From assembly GCA_029775965.1 (NCBI GenBank), contig JARVJU010000006.1, positions 1 to 64,000 on the forward strand: a stretch of 64,000 nt of DNA. Reading direction: 5' to 3'. Made by a program: the position numbers and the translations under genes. How positions within the stretch are numbered: the stretch's first letter is position 1; each line of letters opens with the position of its first letter. Origin of the DNA: Nitrososphaeria archaeon. Its GTDB lineage: Archaea > Thermoproteota > Nitrososphaeria > Conexivisphaerales > DTJL01. The notes under the pieces were generated by a model. That model saw only the letters and a list, made by a program, of their open reading frames with translations, was not told the origin of the DNA and did not search any database. This document shows positions 5,499 through 14,577 of this stretch, one piece after another.

Positions 5499-6461
5499 AT
5501 GAATATTGAAGATATACCATTACGCAAAGTTGATGGAATAGAAGAGAGGATTGAGCATAGGCTTGCAGGTGTAGGGATAGATTCTGCATTTGAACTTGCT
5601 TCCTCATCTCCCTACGAAATAATGAGCATAGTAGGAGGAGATTCTTATAATGCAGCCTTGCTTATAGCTAATGCAAGGTCTCATCTTATTAAAAAAGGGT
5701 ATATGGCTAGAGAGTTCATAGCAGCAAGCGAAATAGCTAGAAGAAAAAAGAATGTACTTTCTACAGGCTCTAAAGCATTAGACAGCCTGCTTGCTGGCGG
5801 GATAGAAACAGATTCTATTACAGAATTCTATGGAGCTTTTGGCTCTGGAAAATCACAGATCTGCCATACAGCATCTGTACTATGCAATCTTAAACCTGAA
5901 GATGGAGGTCTTGGTGGTAATGCAATATACATAGATACAGAAGGGACGTTCAGAGTAAACAGAATAGCCCAGATAGCAGAAGCAAGGGGTCTGAATAAAG
6001 ATGAAATTCTGGATTGTATATTTTATTGCAGAGTATTCAATGTCCCTCATTTAGAAACTGTAGCAAGGTCTCTTGGTGGCTACATAAGAAAGAATAGGAT
6101 AAAGCTTGTAATAATCGATAGTATAATCAATCTTTTCAGGTCAGAATTCATAGGCAGAGAAGCACTTGCTGAGAGACAGCAGAAGCTTAATGCACTTATG
6201 CATAAGCTGCATAACCTAGCAGAAGTTTACGATATAGCTGTCATAATAACAAATCAGGTGCAGAGCTCGCCTACTGCATACTTTACTGATACCACAAACC
6301 CGGCAGGAGGTAATATTCTTGGGCATGGTTCAACCTATAGAATATATCTAAAAAGGTCTGGAAACTATAGGATTGCTGCAATAATTGATAGCCCCTATCA
6401 TCCTTATTCAGAGGCAAGGTTCGCAATAACGGATAAAGGGGTAAGTGATACAGATGATTGA
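5499..6461 (+). CDS. radA: RadA/Rad51-family recombinase
   Basis: HhH-like N-terminus, GSKALDSLLAGGIETDSITEFYGAFGSGKSQ Walker A, LVIIDSIINLFR Walker B, NQVQSSP, NPAGGNILGHGSTYRIYLK. Confidence 0.9.
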   Translation: MNIEDIPLRKVDGIEERIEHRLAGVGIDSAFELASSSPYEIMSIVGGDSYNAALLIANARSHLIKKGYMAREFIAASEIARRKKNVLSTGSKALDSLLAGGIETDSITEFYGAFGSGKSQICHTASVLCNLKPEDGGLGGNAIYIDTEGTFRVNRIAQIAEARGLNKDEILDCIFYCRVFNVPHLETVARSLGGYIRKNRIKLVIIDSIINLFRSEFIGREALAERQQKLNALMHKLHNLAEVYDIAVIITNQVQSSPTAYFTDTTNPAGGNILGHGSTYRIYLKRSGNYRIAAIIDSPYHPYSEARFAITDKGVSDTDD

Positions 6462-7416
6462 TATAGTACCAGCCTCAAGCATTCATGATTTTGGTTCTTT
6501 AACCATAGGCATAGAGGAGCTTGATGAAATCATAGGCAAAATAAGCCCGGGAAGTATCTGCCTCTTTTACGGTAATTCTACTATGATAGATGAAATGGTG
6601 CATATAATGATAGTCAGAGGATGTATGCTTGGCAAGGTTGCATACATGAATAATACAAATTATCATACAGCAAAGACGCTTATAGACCTAGATAAGATAG
6701 CGTCATATGCTAAGCAGCAGGGTATAGAGGCTGTAGAGGTATTCAAGAAGACATATTTTGTAGCTGCTTATAATCAGTATAGACAGCCAAAGGCAACTGA
6801 TATTCTTGCTCAAGCTATAAGAGAGGATACAAGCCTTATCATAGTTCATAATATAACAAAATTTATAGAAGGTTCTAACGATGATGCAGCTAAAGCGCTG
6901 GAGACCTCGCTTGCCAAGCTATTACATGTAGCTGCAAAAATGTCTGCAACAATGCTGATAACTGCTGATGCGAAGGAAGTTTCTAATAAAATACCTCTGC
7001 CCAAAGCTGATGGTTTACTTTATGCATCAAACATAATTGTGTTCTTCAGAGATTTGGAGCAAGGATCCGTGCATGTAACGGTTGTAAAGCATCCTGAAAA
7101 ACAGACACCTATCTCTTTTATCATATCAAAAAATTGTGAGTCTCTAGCTTGTAATACAAAATCGTTCAGACAAATATACGTTGAATTGATAAGCAAGCTT
7201 AGAATCTGCTATATGCAGCTTTTGAGAAGTAAGGAGAACAGCCAAGCCTTCGAATCACTCATCAAAGTATGGGATCAGGAAGAACTGGCTATGGCAAGAT
7301 CGGAATTGCCCCTTGCAATAGATGCGATGAACCTTACTGCCAATGTAGCAAACAGAGCCGAAATAGAGAAGCTCAAAGAGAGAATAGAGAAGCTGGAGAA
7401 GATGATGTTGGTGTAA
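6445..7416 (+). CDS. RecA/RadA-fold paralogue lacking a recognisable Walker A
   Basis: GIEELDEIIGKISPGSICLFYGNSTMIDE aligns with the RadA Walker A region but has no GKS/T; overlaps radA by 17 nt; C-terminal coiled coil. Confidence 0.7.
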   Translation: MIQMIDIVPASSIHDFGSLTIGIEELDEIIGKISPGSICLFYGNSTMIDEMVHIMIVRGCMLGKVAYMNNTNYHTAKTLIDLDKIASYAKQQGIEAVEVFKKTYFVAAYNQYRQPKATDILAQAIREDTSLIIVHNITKFIEGSNDDAAKALETSLAKLLHVAAKMSATMLITADAKEVSNKIPLPKADGLLYASNIIVFFRDLEQGSVHVTVVKHPEKQTPISFIISKNCESLACNTKSFRQIYVELISKLRICYMQLLRSKENSQAFESLIKVWDQEELAMARSELPLAIDAMNLTANVANRAEIEKLKERIEKLEKMMLV

Positions 7417-7420
7417 AATT

Positions 7421-9493
7421 ATGCAGGAGTATGGCTGGCTCCTTGATGTCTATATTCAGGACAATACAGCTGTTCTATGGATAAAGAGGGAAGACGGTAG
7501 CTTAATAAGAATCACAGATAGCTATGCACCATCTTTTTATGTCAAGCCTATAGACTGGGTAGATAGATATCAGATTCTTCAATCTTTACAGGATTATGAA
7601 CATACAAAAGCTGTTGCAGAAGAAGATAAGATTGTATCTATAGCTGAAAACACAAAGGTGAAACTTATCAGAATTGAAACTAGGTCTGTTTATGGTTTTA
7701 ACATTTTGGTAAAGAGGCTGTCAAAAGATCATGAGGTTTATAATGCAGATTTAGAGCATGTACAGCTTTATCTTTTTCAGAGACTGAGAATAGAACCTAC
7801 AAGCAAGGTAGCCTTTGAACATTATAACGGAAGATTGCTCTGGATGAAAAAGTTGGACGATGAGAATATTGTTGAGCCACCCCCCTTCAGCATGATGCGT
7901 ATGAATATGCTGTACAGCATGCATAAAGGTAAAAGAGAGCTTCATGAGATAGAAGTGTATGATAAGAGTAGTGTATTCACAGTAAAGAAGGAAGATTTAA
8001 TCGATTATATATCTATGCAGAATCCAGATATAATAGTTCTACCAAAATGTGATGAAGTTGCTCTTCAACTGCTCATAGATAATAAATTGAGTATAAGCAG
8101 GGTTGATGAGCAGGAGCAGGTAAAGAGGCAAGGAAGCTGGGGAGGCAGAATACTCATAGGGGATAGCATAATAGGCCATTCAGCTGAACAATGGGGTATC
8201 GCAGGACTGGTTGAAAGGGCAAGGTTCGGTTTTCTGCCTTTAGGAATTGCTGCAAGATGGCTTAGCAACAAAACAATAGACTCAAGAAACTGTTATGAAT
8301 TGATGAAAAGAGGCTATGCAATACCTAGAGAAGAATATTTTGAATCAGCACGTCAGCTTTGTGAGCTAGCAGAGAGAGATAGAGGTGGAATAAACGTGAC
8401 ACCTGAAGCTGGTATACTGCACCAAAATGTTGCATCTCTGGATTTTGATTCTCAGTATCCTAATATAATGCTGAAGAAAAGATTGAGTTATGAGGACCCT
8501 TTGGGTAATTATGATTCCCTGGGTCTTATAGCTATAGCGATAGAGCCTTGGTTAAGAAGGAGACTCATGCTTAAAAGAATCAGAAAAGAATTGAAAAAAG
8601 GGAGTAAAGAGAGAGAATACTGTGAACAGAGAATAGATGCATTAAAATTGATACTTGTCACAAGCTATGGCATATCAGGCTGCTGCTGGAATAGGTTTGG
8701 TAATGTTCTTACCTTTGAAGAGATCAACAGATATTCAAGAGAAGCTATACTAAAAGCAAAATACATAGCACAGCAGAGGGGCTATGAGATAGTCTACTGC
8801 GCTGTAGATTCACTCTTTGTAAAGAAGAATGGAGCGAATAGAGAAGATTATGAATCTCTTGCGCAAGAGATATCTGAAAAGACGGGCCTGCCTATGTCAC
8901 TAGACAAGCACTTTAAATTTCTAGCTTTCGGAAAGTTAAAGTCTAATGGAGTATCATCTGCGCTGAGCAGGTATTTTGGAATCACCTTTGACGGAGAAAT
9001 TGAAGCTAGAGGTGTAGAGCTAAGAAGAAATGATGTGCCAGAATTTATAAAAAGATTTCAGGCTGAATTCATCCTTCAACTATTAGATCATGATAGCATA
9101 GAAGAAGTGATTGATAAAGGCCTTGTGTCAGCCAAAAAAGTGCTACGTGATTACCTTAGCATGATAAGAGATGGCAAGGTTGATACCATGCAATTAATGC
9201 TTAGAAGAGATTTAAGGAAAGAATTGGACAAGTACAAGGTAAGAACTTCGCACAGTATGGCTGCCATACAGCTCATGAAAGAGGGTAAAGATGTGGCAGT
9301 TGGTGATACAATAAATTTCTTCTTTACTGATCATGATAACAAAAACCCGGCATGTAGAGTTAGAACTGTACCAGAAGTTATGTACGATTCAGTTTTTTAT
9401 TCAAAGATTCTGATGACTGCTGCCAATTCAATACTTGAGGCTACCGGATTAAAAGTAGAGAGCACTAAAGATTATAAACTTGGGCTCTGTTAA
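7421..9493 (+). CDS. Family B DNA polymerase with degenerate exonuclease region
   Basis: Motif A SLDFDSQYPNIM; motif B LKLILVTSYGISG; motif C YCAVDSLFVKK; thumb KYKVRTSHSMAAIQLMKEGKDVAVGD; no canonical DIE or ExoII motif. Confidence 0.88.
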   Translation: MQEYGWLLDVYIQDNTAVLWIKREDGSLIRITDSYAPSFYVKPIDWVDRYQILQSLQDYEHTKAVAEEDKIVSIAENTKVKLIRIETRSVYGFNILVKRLSKDHEVYNADLEHVQLYLFQRLRIEPTSKVAFEHYNGRLLWMKKLDDENIVEPPPFSMMRMNMLYSMHKGKRELHEIEVYDKSSVFTVKKEDLIDYISMQNPDIIVLPKCDEVALQLLIDNKLSISRVDEQEQVKRQGSWGGRILIGDSIIGHSAEQWGIAGLVERARFGFLPLGIAARWLSNKTIDSRNCYELMKRGYAIPREEYFESARQLCELAERDRGGINVTPEAGILHQNVASLDFDSQYPNIMLKKRLSYEDPLGNYDSLGLIAIAIEPWLRRRLMLKRIRKELKKGSKEREYCEQRIDALKLILVTSYGISGCCWNRFGNVLTFEEINRYSREAILKAKYIAQQRGYEIVYCAVDSLFVKKNGANREDYESLAQEISEKTGLPMSLDKHFKFLAFGKLKSNGVSSALSRYFGITFDGEIEARGVELRRNDVPEFIKRFQAEFILQLLDHDSIEEVIDKGLVSAKKVLRDYLSMIRDGKVDTMQLMLRRDLRKELDKYKVRTSHSMAAIQLMKEGKDVAVGDTINFFFTDHDNKNPACRVRTVPEVMYDSVFYSKILMTAANSILEATGLKVESTKDYKLGLC

Positions 9494-13177: not shown

Positions 13178-14577
13178 GTGAACTACCCCGCCCTTGCAGA
13201 TGTGGCTTCTGCCCTATCAGTTTGTTTGGAGCTTCTCGCTTCATAGGCAATGCTTGCTTTCACATGTGGAATGCTTTTTATGTATTCGAGCATGCTACTT
13301 GTAGAGGCATAATATAATCCTCTGCGAGCGTCTCGCCTAGGTTCCATAGGCAAAGCACTTCTTGCTTTATCTTATTTGCAGCAACTACATCTCTATCAAA
13401 TACTGAATGGCATGAAGGGCATACTGCAATTCTATCTGATAGGCTCAGATGCTGCACTGTACCACAATTCATGCATACTCCAGTTGTTCTTATGAACCTG
13501 CCTACTTCCAAAGGAGTGCTTGCCTTTCTCTTTAGGCATTCGCGGAATCCTCCTATAGAAGTCTCATAGATTCTCCTTCCATAAAACTTCATCCAGCTAT
13601 GTATATTATCATTTTGGTAAGCAATATATTCATAATTTGTTGTTACATAATGAGCAAGTTTGTTGTTTATATCTTTCTTCTGATTGTTCTGATGCAGAAA
13701 TTCGCTCTTTATCTTTTGTAGTATTTTTGTACCTCTTCTAGACCTCTTTTTTGTGTCTTTGTCATATTCAGCTCTTGAAAAGACTTTGTAAAGTCTCTTT
13801 ATCCTTTCAGACATTGTTATAGCGTATTGCACCTTTATTCCGTTAGAAAATGTGATTTGGTTCGTTATGCCTAAGTCAATGCCTATTGCCATGCTATTAT
13901 GCACTCTTTCTTCTTTTGGCAAATATGCAATTGCATGCAAAAAGTAATCGCAATTTCTCTCTATAAAGTTTGCAGTGGCAAACTCTGCATTGCATGGTAT
14001 TTGACTTATTCCATTTACTTTGAAATCACCCAAGCCCTGTATATGTACTGTTTTATCCTTCGTATTTATCTTATAGGTTATGCCGTATTGCATTAGAGGT
14101 ATTGAATGCAAGGCTCCCTGTATCTTATCTTTCCAATTTTCTTTTCTCCCTTTTCCTTTCAGCGTCTTAAGACTTTTGATGTTGCTCTGCAACCTTTTTA
14201 TCAGGTATTGTTTCATCTGTGATGACAATACAGTCAGCTCTCTTTCTTCGAATTTATCTCCAACCTTTACATTTACCTTTCTAACTTTATAATCTTTATA
14301 AGAAACAGAATTCGATATGCCTTTTGCTATTATATGGTTTGTAAACCACTTTGCCTCAAGAAAGATCCTTTGAAGTATGCCTAATCTTTGCTTTGATATT
14401 TTGCTCTTATCAAGTTTTATTTCATATACTTTTGCAATCTGACCTTTACGTTTTTCCTTTGTTTCCTTGCCTTTTTCTCGTATTCTAATGTTCTTTGCTA
14501 TTTGTAGCGTATTATACTATATTCAACATGTCTATAAAAATTTTATTCGCTTCCATCCCCTTGCCAAGTCAAGGGGA
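13178..14577 (-). mobile_element. IS605/IS1341-type element carrying tnpB and no tnpA
   Basis: tnpB flanked by an 8-bp-stem hairpin TCCCCTTG-CCAAGT-CAAGGGGA at 14556-14577 and, at the other end, a right-end-like GGGCGGGGTAGTTCAC on the minus strand. Boundaries are inferred. Confidence 0.55.
13278..14228 (-). CDS. tnpB: TnpB-family RNA-guided nuclease/transposon protein; reading frame stays open about 100 codons further upstream with no ATG/GTG/TTG
   Basis: GIDLGITNQITFSNG (RuvC-I), CMNCGTVQHLSLSDRIAVCPSC zinc ribbon, DRDVVAANKI (RuvC-III). Upstream frame reads KVYEIKLDKSKISKQRLGILQRIFLEAKWFTNHII, typical of a TnpB N-terminus. Confidence 0.85.
   Translation of the reverse strand: MSSQMKQYLIKRLQSNIKSLKTLKGKGRKENWKDKIQGALHSIPLMQYGITYKINTKDKTVHIQGLGDFKVNGISQIPCNAEFATANFIERNCDYFLHAIAYLPKEERVHNSMAIGIDLGITNQITFSNGIKVQYAITMSERIKRLYKVFSRAEYDKDTKKRSRRGTKILQKIKSEFLHQNNQKKDINNKLAHYVTTNYEYIAYQNDNIHSWMKFYGRRIYETSIGGFRECLKRKASTPLEVGRFIRTTGVCMNCGTVQHLSLSDRIAVCPSCHSVFDRDVVAANKIKQEVLCLWNLGETLAEDYIMPLQVACSNT

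Follow-up and report, generated by a model that had tools for sequence, protein, structure and literature searches.

What does a compact archaeal operon encode when it joins a RadA recombinase, a second RadA-like protein without a P-loop, and a B-family DNA polymerase without exonuclease motifs? The question is raised by a 64,000-nucleotide stretch of DNA (hereafter the window) from a Nitrososphaeria archaeon of the order Conexivisphaerales (assembly GCA_029775965.1, contig JARVJU010000006.1; genome bin of 1.74 Mb, 93% complete), in which open reading frame (ORF) calling places three intact ORFs on the + strand, at 5499-6461, 6445 or 6454-7416, and 7421-9493. Comparison with relatives identifies their products as RadA2, an ATPase-intact paralogue of the housekeeping RadA; a fusion of an ATPase-less RadA homologue (iRadA) with a small helical protein (PPB2); and a polymerase of PolB2/Dpo2 type. 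A 2025 paper (PMC11791011) put forward an assembly of PolB2, iRadA and PPB2 as an archaeal mutasome, and the new part of the operon is its dedicated RadA2. An earlier note on this DNA had read the operon as a candidate archaeal mutasome, rightly, but the word "candidate" undersells a core that has already been described (PMC4104785, PMC11791011). In our view the operon probably encodes a PolB2-type damage-tolerance (translesion) polymerase complex with its own recombinase, RadA2, as filament partner. Its features are as follows.

5499..6461, + strand: radA2, encoding a 320-amino-acid full-length RadA/Rad51-family recombinase paralogue with a helix-hairpin-helix (HhH) N-terminal domain, an FxxA-type motif (F73-A76) and intact Walker A and B motifs
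5715..5726, + strand: FxxA polymerisation motif of RadA2, FIAA, from alignment with RadA paralogues
5832..5855, + strand: intact Walker A of RadA2, GAFGSGKS
6454..7416, + strand: iRadA-PPB2 fusion, 320 amino acids from ATG 6454 or 323 from GTG 6445
6463..6474, + strand: N-terminal [FMLI]xxA motif of iRadA, IVPA, at the position of the RadA polymerisation motif
6571..6594, + strand: degenerate P-loop of iRadA, GNSTMIDE
7147..7413, + strand: three-helix PPB2 domain (former arCOG07300) on the iRadA C-terminus, its MGR arm replaced by ACN
7421..9493, + strand: polB2, encoding a 690-amino-acid, exonuclease-degenerate PolB2/Dpo2-type B-family DNA polymerase
8339..8350, + strand: FxxA-like tetrad of PolB2, FESA (F307-A310), within the loop that docks on iRadA in the published model (PMC11791011)
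8378..8383, + strand: D(K/R) motif of PolB2, D320-R321 in ERDRGG, a motif described in PMC11791011
8801..8809, + strand: motif C of PolB2, AVD, in which DxD has lost its first Asp (most relatives here have DVD, DTD or DCD there)

The genes are tightly packed, with 4 nucleotides between the end of the second ORF and the start of polB2. The ORF coordinates and this gap had been given correctly before; the reported 17-nucleotide overlap of the first two ORFs applies only to a GTG start at 6445, and alignment favours ATG 6454, which gives an overlap of 8 nucleotides, because it better matches the aligned relatives.

The third gene product, judged by motifs and tree position, is a PolB2/Dpo2-type polymerase that has lost its exonuclease motifs. 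It matches PF00136 (E=6e-26), its predicted fold has archaeal PolBs as nearest structural neighbours, and in an alignment with relatives and canonical archaeal PolBs it has no equivalents of the exo I, II and III acids. The motif A Asp is kept, and motif C reads YCAVDS, so that DxD has become AxD, as in the PolB2 of a congener (G001); most other relatives retain DxD. A PolB2 alignment of 23 rows shows no variation at D341 (motif A), D463 (motif C) or D320, the Asp of the D(K/R) motif, and in a separate PolB2 alignment D320 is invariant and R321 nearly so. FESA stands just before ERDRGG, the tetrad itself varying among relatives, and in the PolB tree the window enzyme falls among polymerases whose genes adjoin those of iRadA and PPB2. 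The exonuclease degeneracy and the link to PolB2/Dpo2 that had been suggested for this enzyme are thus borne out. No PCNA (sliding-clamp) motif was visible by eye at the C-terminus of PolB2 or iRadA, for which no profile search was made; a fraction of such proteins carry one. The window enzyme was rejected as main replicase, in agreement with the non-replicative role assumed previously, as the same genome encodes a PolB of 1011 amino acids (L161:3022-6057) whose exonuclease motifs, DIE, NGDDFD and YxxxD, are intact and which has an intein in motif C; a Y-family polymerase is also encoded. Dpo2 is reported to be a robust, damage-inducible polymerase without exonuclease that extends mismatches efficiently and is solely responsible for targeted mutagenesis in Sulfolobus islandicus (PMC7390963, PMC8764526). 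As a separate observation, the PolB2 of a Geothermarchaeota metagenome-assembled genome (MAG; G039, L042:10260-12767, same as L099) ends in a LigD 3'-phosphoesterase domain (PF13298, E=1e-23), so that an exonuclease-less polymerase carries a domain for 3'-end healing; the fusion was seen in this one genome only.

The second gene product had been described as a RecA-fold paralogue with the P-loop GNSTMIDE. The fold and the absence of Walker A stand, but a C-terminal fusion had been missed. The profile and structure comparisons that the earlier note proposed give only a weak RadB/RadA profile signal, and RadB identity was rejected, since the score against TIGR02237 (30 bits) lies below the cut-off of 172 and the P-loop is absent; the predicted structure (mean predicted local distance difference test score 83.5) matches Dmc1/Rad51/RadA, with a best E of 9e-15. 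As in the iRadA of the published mutasome, the protein is a RadA homologue with neither an ATPase motif nor an N-terminal helical domain. Walker A is absent from all iRadA proteins examined (0/27). Each of the 26 iRadA N-termini read has an [FMLI]xxA motif where RadA has FxxA, and the Ala of this motif is invariant in 21/21 fusions (21-row alignment). From these sequences iRadA seems to keep both the donor and the acceptor side of the RadA interface while its ATPase is lost, which fits the need of a bridge between filament and polymerase.

Calditenuaceae and, within the order of the window genome, genus g10 have the gene split into iRadA and a following ORF of about 95-100 amino acids starting MGR, LGR or VGR, which by sequence is PPB2 (arCOG07300); the window ORF is therefore read as an iRadA-PPB2 fusion, a variant already reported (PMC11791011). 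PPB2 makes up its last ~89 residues (232-320), with predicted helices at 238-252, 260-280 and 288-319; Pfam offers no usable PPB2 model. MGR is nearly invariant in PPB2, and the window sequence alone among the 11 first aligned has ACN, so that the fused domain lacks the MGRT-type N-terminal arm, a secondary rather than a defining feature. The same bin holds, on contig C48, a standalone 92-amino-acid PPB2 starting MGRIT (L155:2822-3100), and genome G162 likewise pairs an armless fused PPB2 with a standalone MGR copy (L158:3074-3364), both standalone copies being unlinked to PolB2. A division of labour between the copies in these two genomes is possible, and duplicated PPB2 with the arm kept in one copy only has been reported (PMC11791011); the PPB2 tree, being too short, does not place the standalone copies.

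The first gene product is an intact RadA, as had been noted, with Walker A GAFGSGKS, Walker B LVIID, a PF08423 match (E=2e-79) and an NF003301 score above cut-off. What had been overlooked is that it is a second, non-housekeeping copy. Another RadA is encoded on contig C51 (G000:C51:31191-33275, L035), 53% identical to RadA2 over the larger part, and where genomes were checked, the RadA of the cassette is an additional copy, another RadA lying elsewhere. With Pyrococcus as outgroup, the RadA tree unites all 19 tested linked copies and three unlinked Nitrososphaeraceae copies in one clade (support 99/97) apart from all housekeeping RadAs, and a tree without outgroups gives the same split. We therefore rejected the first gene as sole or housekeeping RadA on the strength of the C51 copy and the separate clade. 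The linked members come from Conexivisphaerales, Calditenuaceae, Geothermarchaeota, Brockarchaeota, Bathyarchaeota and Nitrososphaerales. Walker A is kept in 19/19 cassette-linked RadA2, and most members have the HhH domain; those of G008 and G013 have no recognisable N-terminal HhH domain and keep the core and FxxA. Separately, the C51 housekeeping RadA is split by an intein exactly in Walker A (GSGK|C...HN|S), a position shared by an intein in the housekeeping RadA of G003:C6, and the Nitrososphaeraceae with unlinked RadA2-clade copies also have other RadA genes, G201 having up to seven RadA matches.

Checked in neighbouring genomes, as the earlier note had proposed, the trio recurs: all four family genomes share the gene order, as do several further lineages, and a chance gene cluster was rejected on this ground. 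The operon is conserved in many TACK lineages. A cassette RadA occupies the same position in all four family genomes and in G039, G023, G008 and G013, and is also found in Calditenuaceae, Brockarchaeota, Bathyarchaeota and Nitrososphaerales/Nitrososphaeraceae MAGs, as well as in G298 and G550. In Nitrososphaeraceae one extra gene lies between RadA2 and iRadA; it encodes a protein of ~600 amino acids of unknown family (L103:1014-2792, L159:3709-5556), for which only sub-threshold profile matches were obtained, including a weak PAZ match in one. Distance correlations across 17 genomes (2000 permutations) gave r 0.81 for RadA2 versus PolB2 and r 0.32 for the housekeeping RadA (RadA1) versus PolB2; the partial correlation of RadA2 with PolB2 given RadA1 was 0.81, a value reached in 0/2000 permutations. 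Since RadA2 forms its own clade and its distances track those of PolB2, RadA2 travels with the cassette, of which it is a recurrent, co-inherited but not universal fourth component.

Concerning how the parts might work together, PolB2 in the published heteropentamer model docks on iRadA by means of a loop mimicking the polymerisation motif of RadA (PMC11791011). We envisage that RadA2, dedicated and ATP-competent, would coat the damaged single strand to form a filament on single-stranded DNA, and that iRadA, a RadA-fold scaffold without ATPase, would plug its N-terminal FxxA-like motif into a RadA2 protomer while its own pocket takes the FxxA-like loop of PolB2. PPB2, a helical subunit, would form a trimer that keeps PolB2, iRadA and DNA together. 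Capping the RadA2 filament, iRadA would bring PolB2 to it, in a manner resembling the activation of Pol V by RecA, and PolB2 would then extend distorted or mispaired primer ends beyond the lesion without proofreading. In cassettes without RadA2, the housekeeping RadA possibly fills the filament role. The full version of this scheme, a four-component mutasome in which an ATP-hydrolysing RadA2 filament both recruits PolB2 and switches it on via iRadA as polymerase-bearing cap, is put forward tentatively, as a possibility that may well fail. If true, it would be a B-family archaeal counterpart of RecA-activated Pol V in which the active and structural recombinase roles are split between two paralogues, and archaeal damage-induced mutagenesis would share its filament logic with bacterial SOS mutagenesis. 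RadA2 is a specific candidate for the missing activator of PolB2 mutasomes, the published complex having no active recombinase. The main text of PMC11791011, whose supplements lay outside our survey and could list RadA2, makes no mention of a linked active RadA, nor do the passages of PMC4104785 consulted, where all operon RadA-like proteins are termed inactivated; the literature searched contained one paper that names iRadA together with PolB2 and none on RadA paralogues with PolB in Thaumarchaeota.

Several points weigh against a RadA2-partnered complex. RadA2 is missing from roughly half of related cassettes (those of Methanomethylicia, G006/G012/G015, g10, G162, G198 and others) and is therefore not required by every PolB2 mutasome; there the role would fall to the housekeeping RadA. 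The three Nitrososphaeraceae RadA2-like copies do not adjoin PolB2 (L193:3706-4776, L194:5898-6989, L195:5397-6500). The window PPB2 has no MGR arm, which is held central to assembly, and the contig with the armed copy that could stand in for it, C48, is 3.1 kb long with a tetranucleotide distance of 0.25 against a window-genome maximum of 0.238, and could have been misplaced by a binning error. Finally, published modelling found no PolB2-RadA contact (PMC11791011); any RadA2-PolB2 link would therefore run via iRadA, and the finding is consistent with a bridge without demonstrating it.

Of the other explanations, the one that survives best makes RadA2 an accessory strand-exchange recombinase that forms D-loops, the invading 3' end being extended by PolB2-iRadA-PPB2, so that the operon would carry out mutagenic repair by recombination and not lesion bypass at the tip of a filament. 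RadA2 does keep Walker A/B and FxxA, with an HhH domain in most members, PolB2 extends mispaired ends, and RadA and DNA polymerases have been studied together in recombination-associated synthesis in hyperthermophilic archaea (PMC7407445). We nevertheless regard it as unlikely, given that the iRadA interface motifs are kept and are not obviously required for D-loop extension, and that the RadA2 of G008 and G013 retain core and FxxA without a recognisable HhH domain. Simple co-regulation, with RadA2 a damage-inducible extra RadA that neither binds the PolB2 complex nor takes part in its mechanism, appears quite improbable: one RadA2 clade stayed tied to PolB2 and diverged with it, which the housekeeping RadA did not, and the same RadA2-PolB2 pair occurs in Brockarchaeota and Bathyarchaeota, even if many lineages have PolB2 cassettes without a linked RadA2 and the damage-induced unit reported in Sulfolobus consists of PolB2, arCOG07300 and the RadA homologue alone. 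That this genus carries a cassette in decay, or one with a regulatory role, its AxD PolB2 and armless PPB2 being inactive and its proteins only modulating replication or origin use, can be given very little credence, for although the AxD motif of the window PolB2 and its congener, the lost MGR arm and the inactivation predicted in earlier papers (PMC4104785) point that way, Sulfolobus PolB2 also lacks the first Asp of DxD and is a robust polymerase, the catalytic D341 and D463 are invariant, the three ORFs are intact and a standalone MGR PPB2 exists in the same bin.

Orc1/Cdc6-type and DUF72 genes have been reported for PolB2 neighbourhoods, orc1/cdc6 being enriched in archaea. No orc1/cdc6 gene lies beside the window operon or adjoins the cassette elsewhere in this genus. 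Orc1/Cdc6-type genes (Cdc6_lid and Cdc6_C by Pfam) adjoin three other PolB2 cassettes (L042:6506-7702, L045:7332-8486, L057:2659-3846), and a DUF72 gene (L045:3-602) lies near one. About 4 kb downstream of the operon, at 13278-14228 on the - strand, is an ORF that by eye looks TnpB-like (IS200/IS605-type), judged from its zinc-finger-like C-terminus.

Comparison with known systems places the operon closest to the PolB2 mutasome (PMC4104785, PMC11791011), with which it shares all three components, operon layout, the iRadA-PPB2 fusion variant, exonuclease loss, the AxD motif, and a D(K/R) loop preceded by a Rad51-oligomerisation-like motif; it differs in being headed by an ATPase-intact RadA2, in its armless fused PPB2 and in having no adjoining orc1/cdc6. 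S. islandicus Dpo2 belongs to the same polymerase family, likewise with no exonuclease and the first motif C Asp lost, whereas the near relatives of the window PolB2 mostly keep DxD. The parallel drawn earlier with imuA-imuB-dnaE2 holds as an analogy and goes no further: in both cassettes a non-replicative polymerase has an accessory protein of RecA fold as partner, but the bacterial one uses a C-family polymerase and a Y-family-like adapter, ImuB, and the window operon has a B-family polymerase with no Y- or C-family gene and no ImuB or DnaE2. Its iRadA matches RadA/Rad51 in fold and sequence. RAD51 paralogue complexes (PDB 9svx, 9q29), filament entries among the best structural matches of iRadA, also have paralogues capping a recombinase filament, although those paralogues carry no polymerase. 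In the E. coli Pol V mutasome (UmuD'2C-RecA-ATP), the published comparison for the PolB2 mutasome, a non-replicative polymerase is again tied to a RecA/Rad51-family protein via an oligomerisation-like motif, and activation by a RadA2 filament would be analogous; Pol V, however, is a Y-family rather than a B-family enzyme, UmuD has no counterpart here, and the recombinase homologue bound in the archaeal complex, iRadA, is inactive, the active RadA2 being a separate protein.

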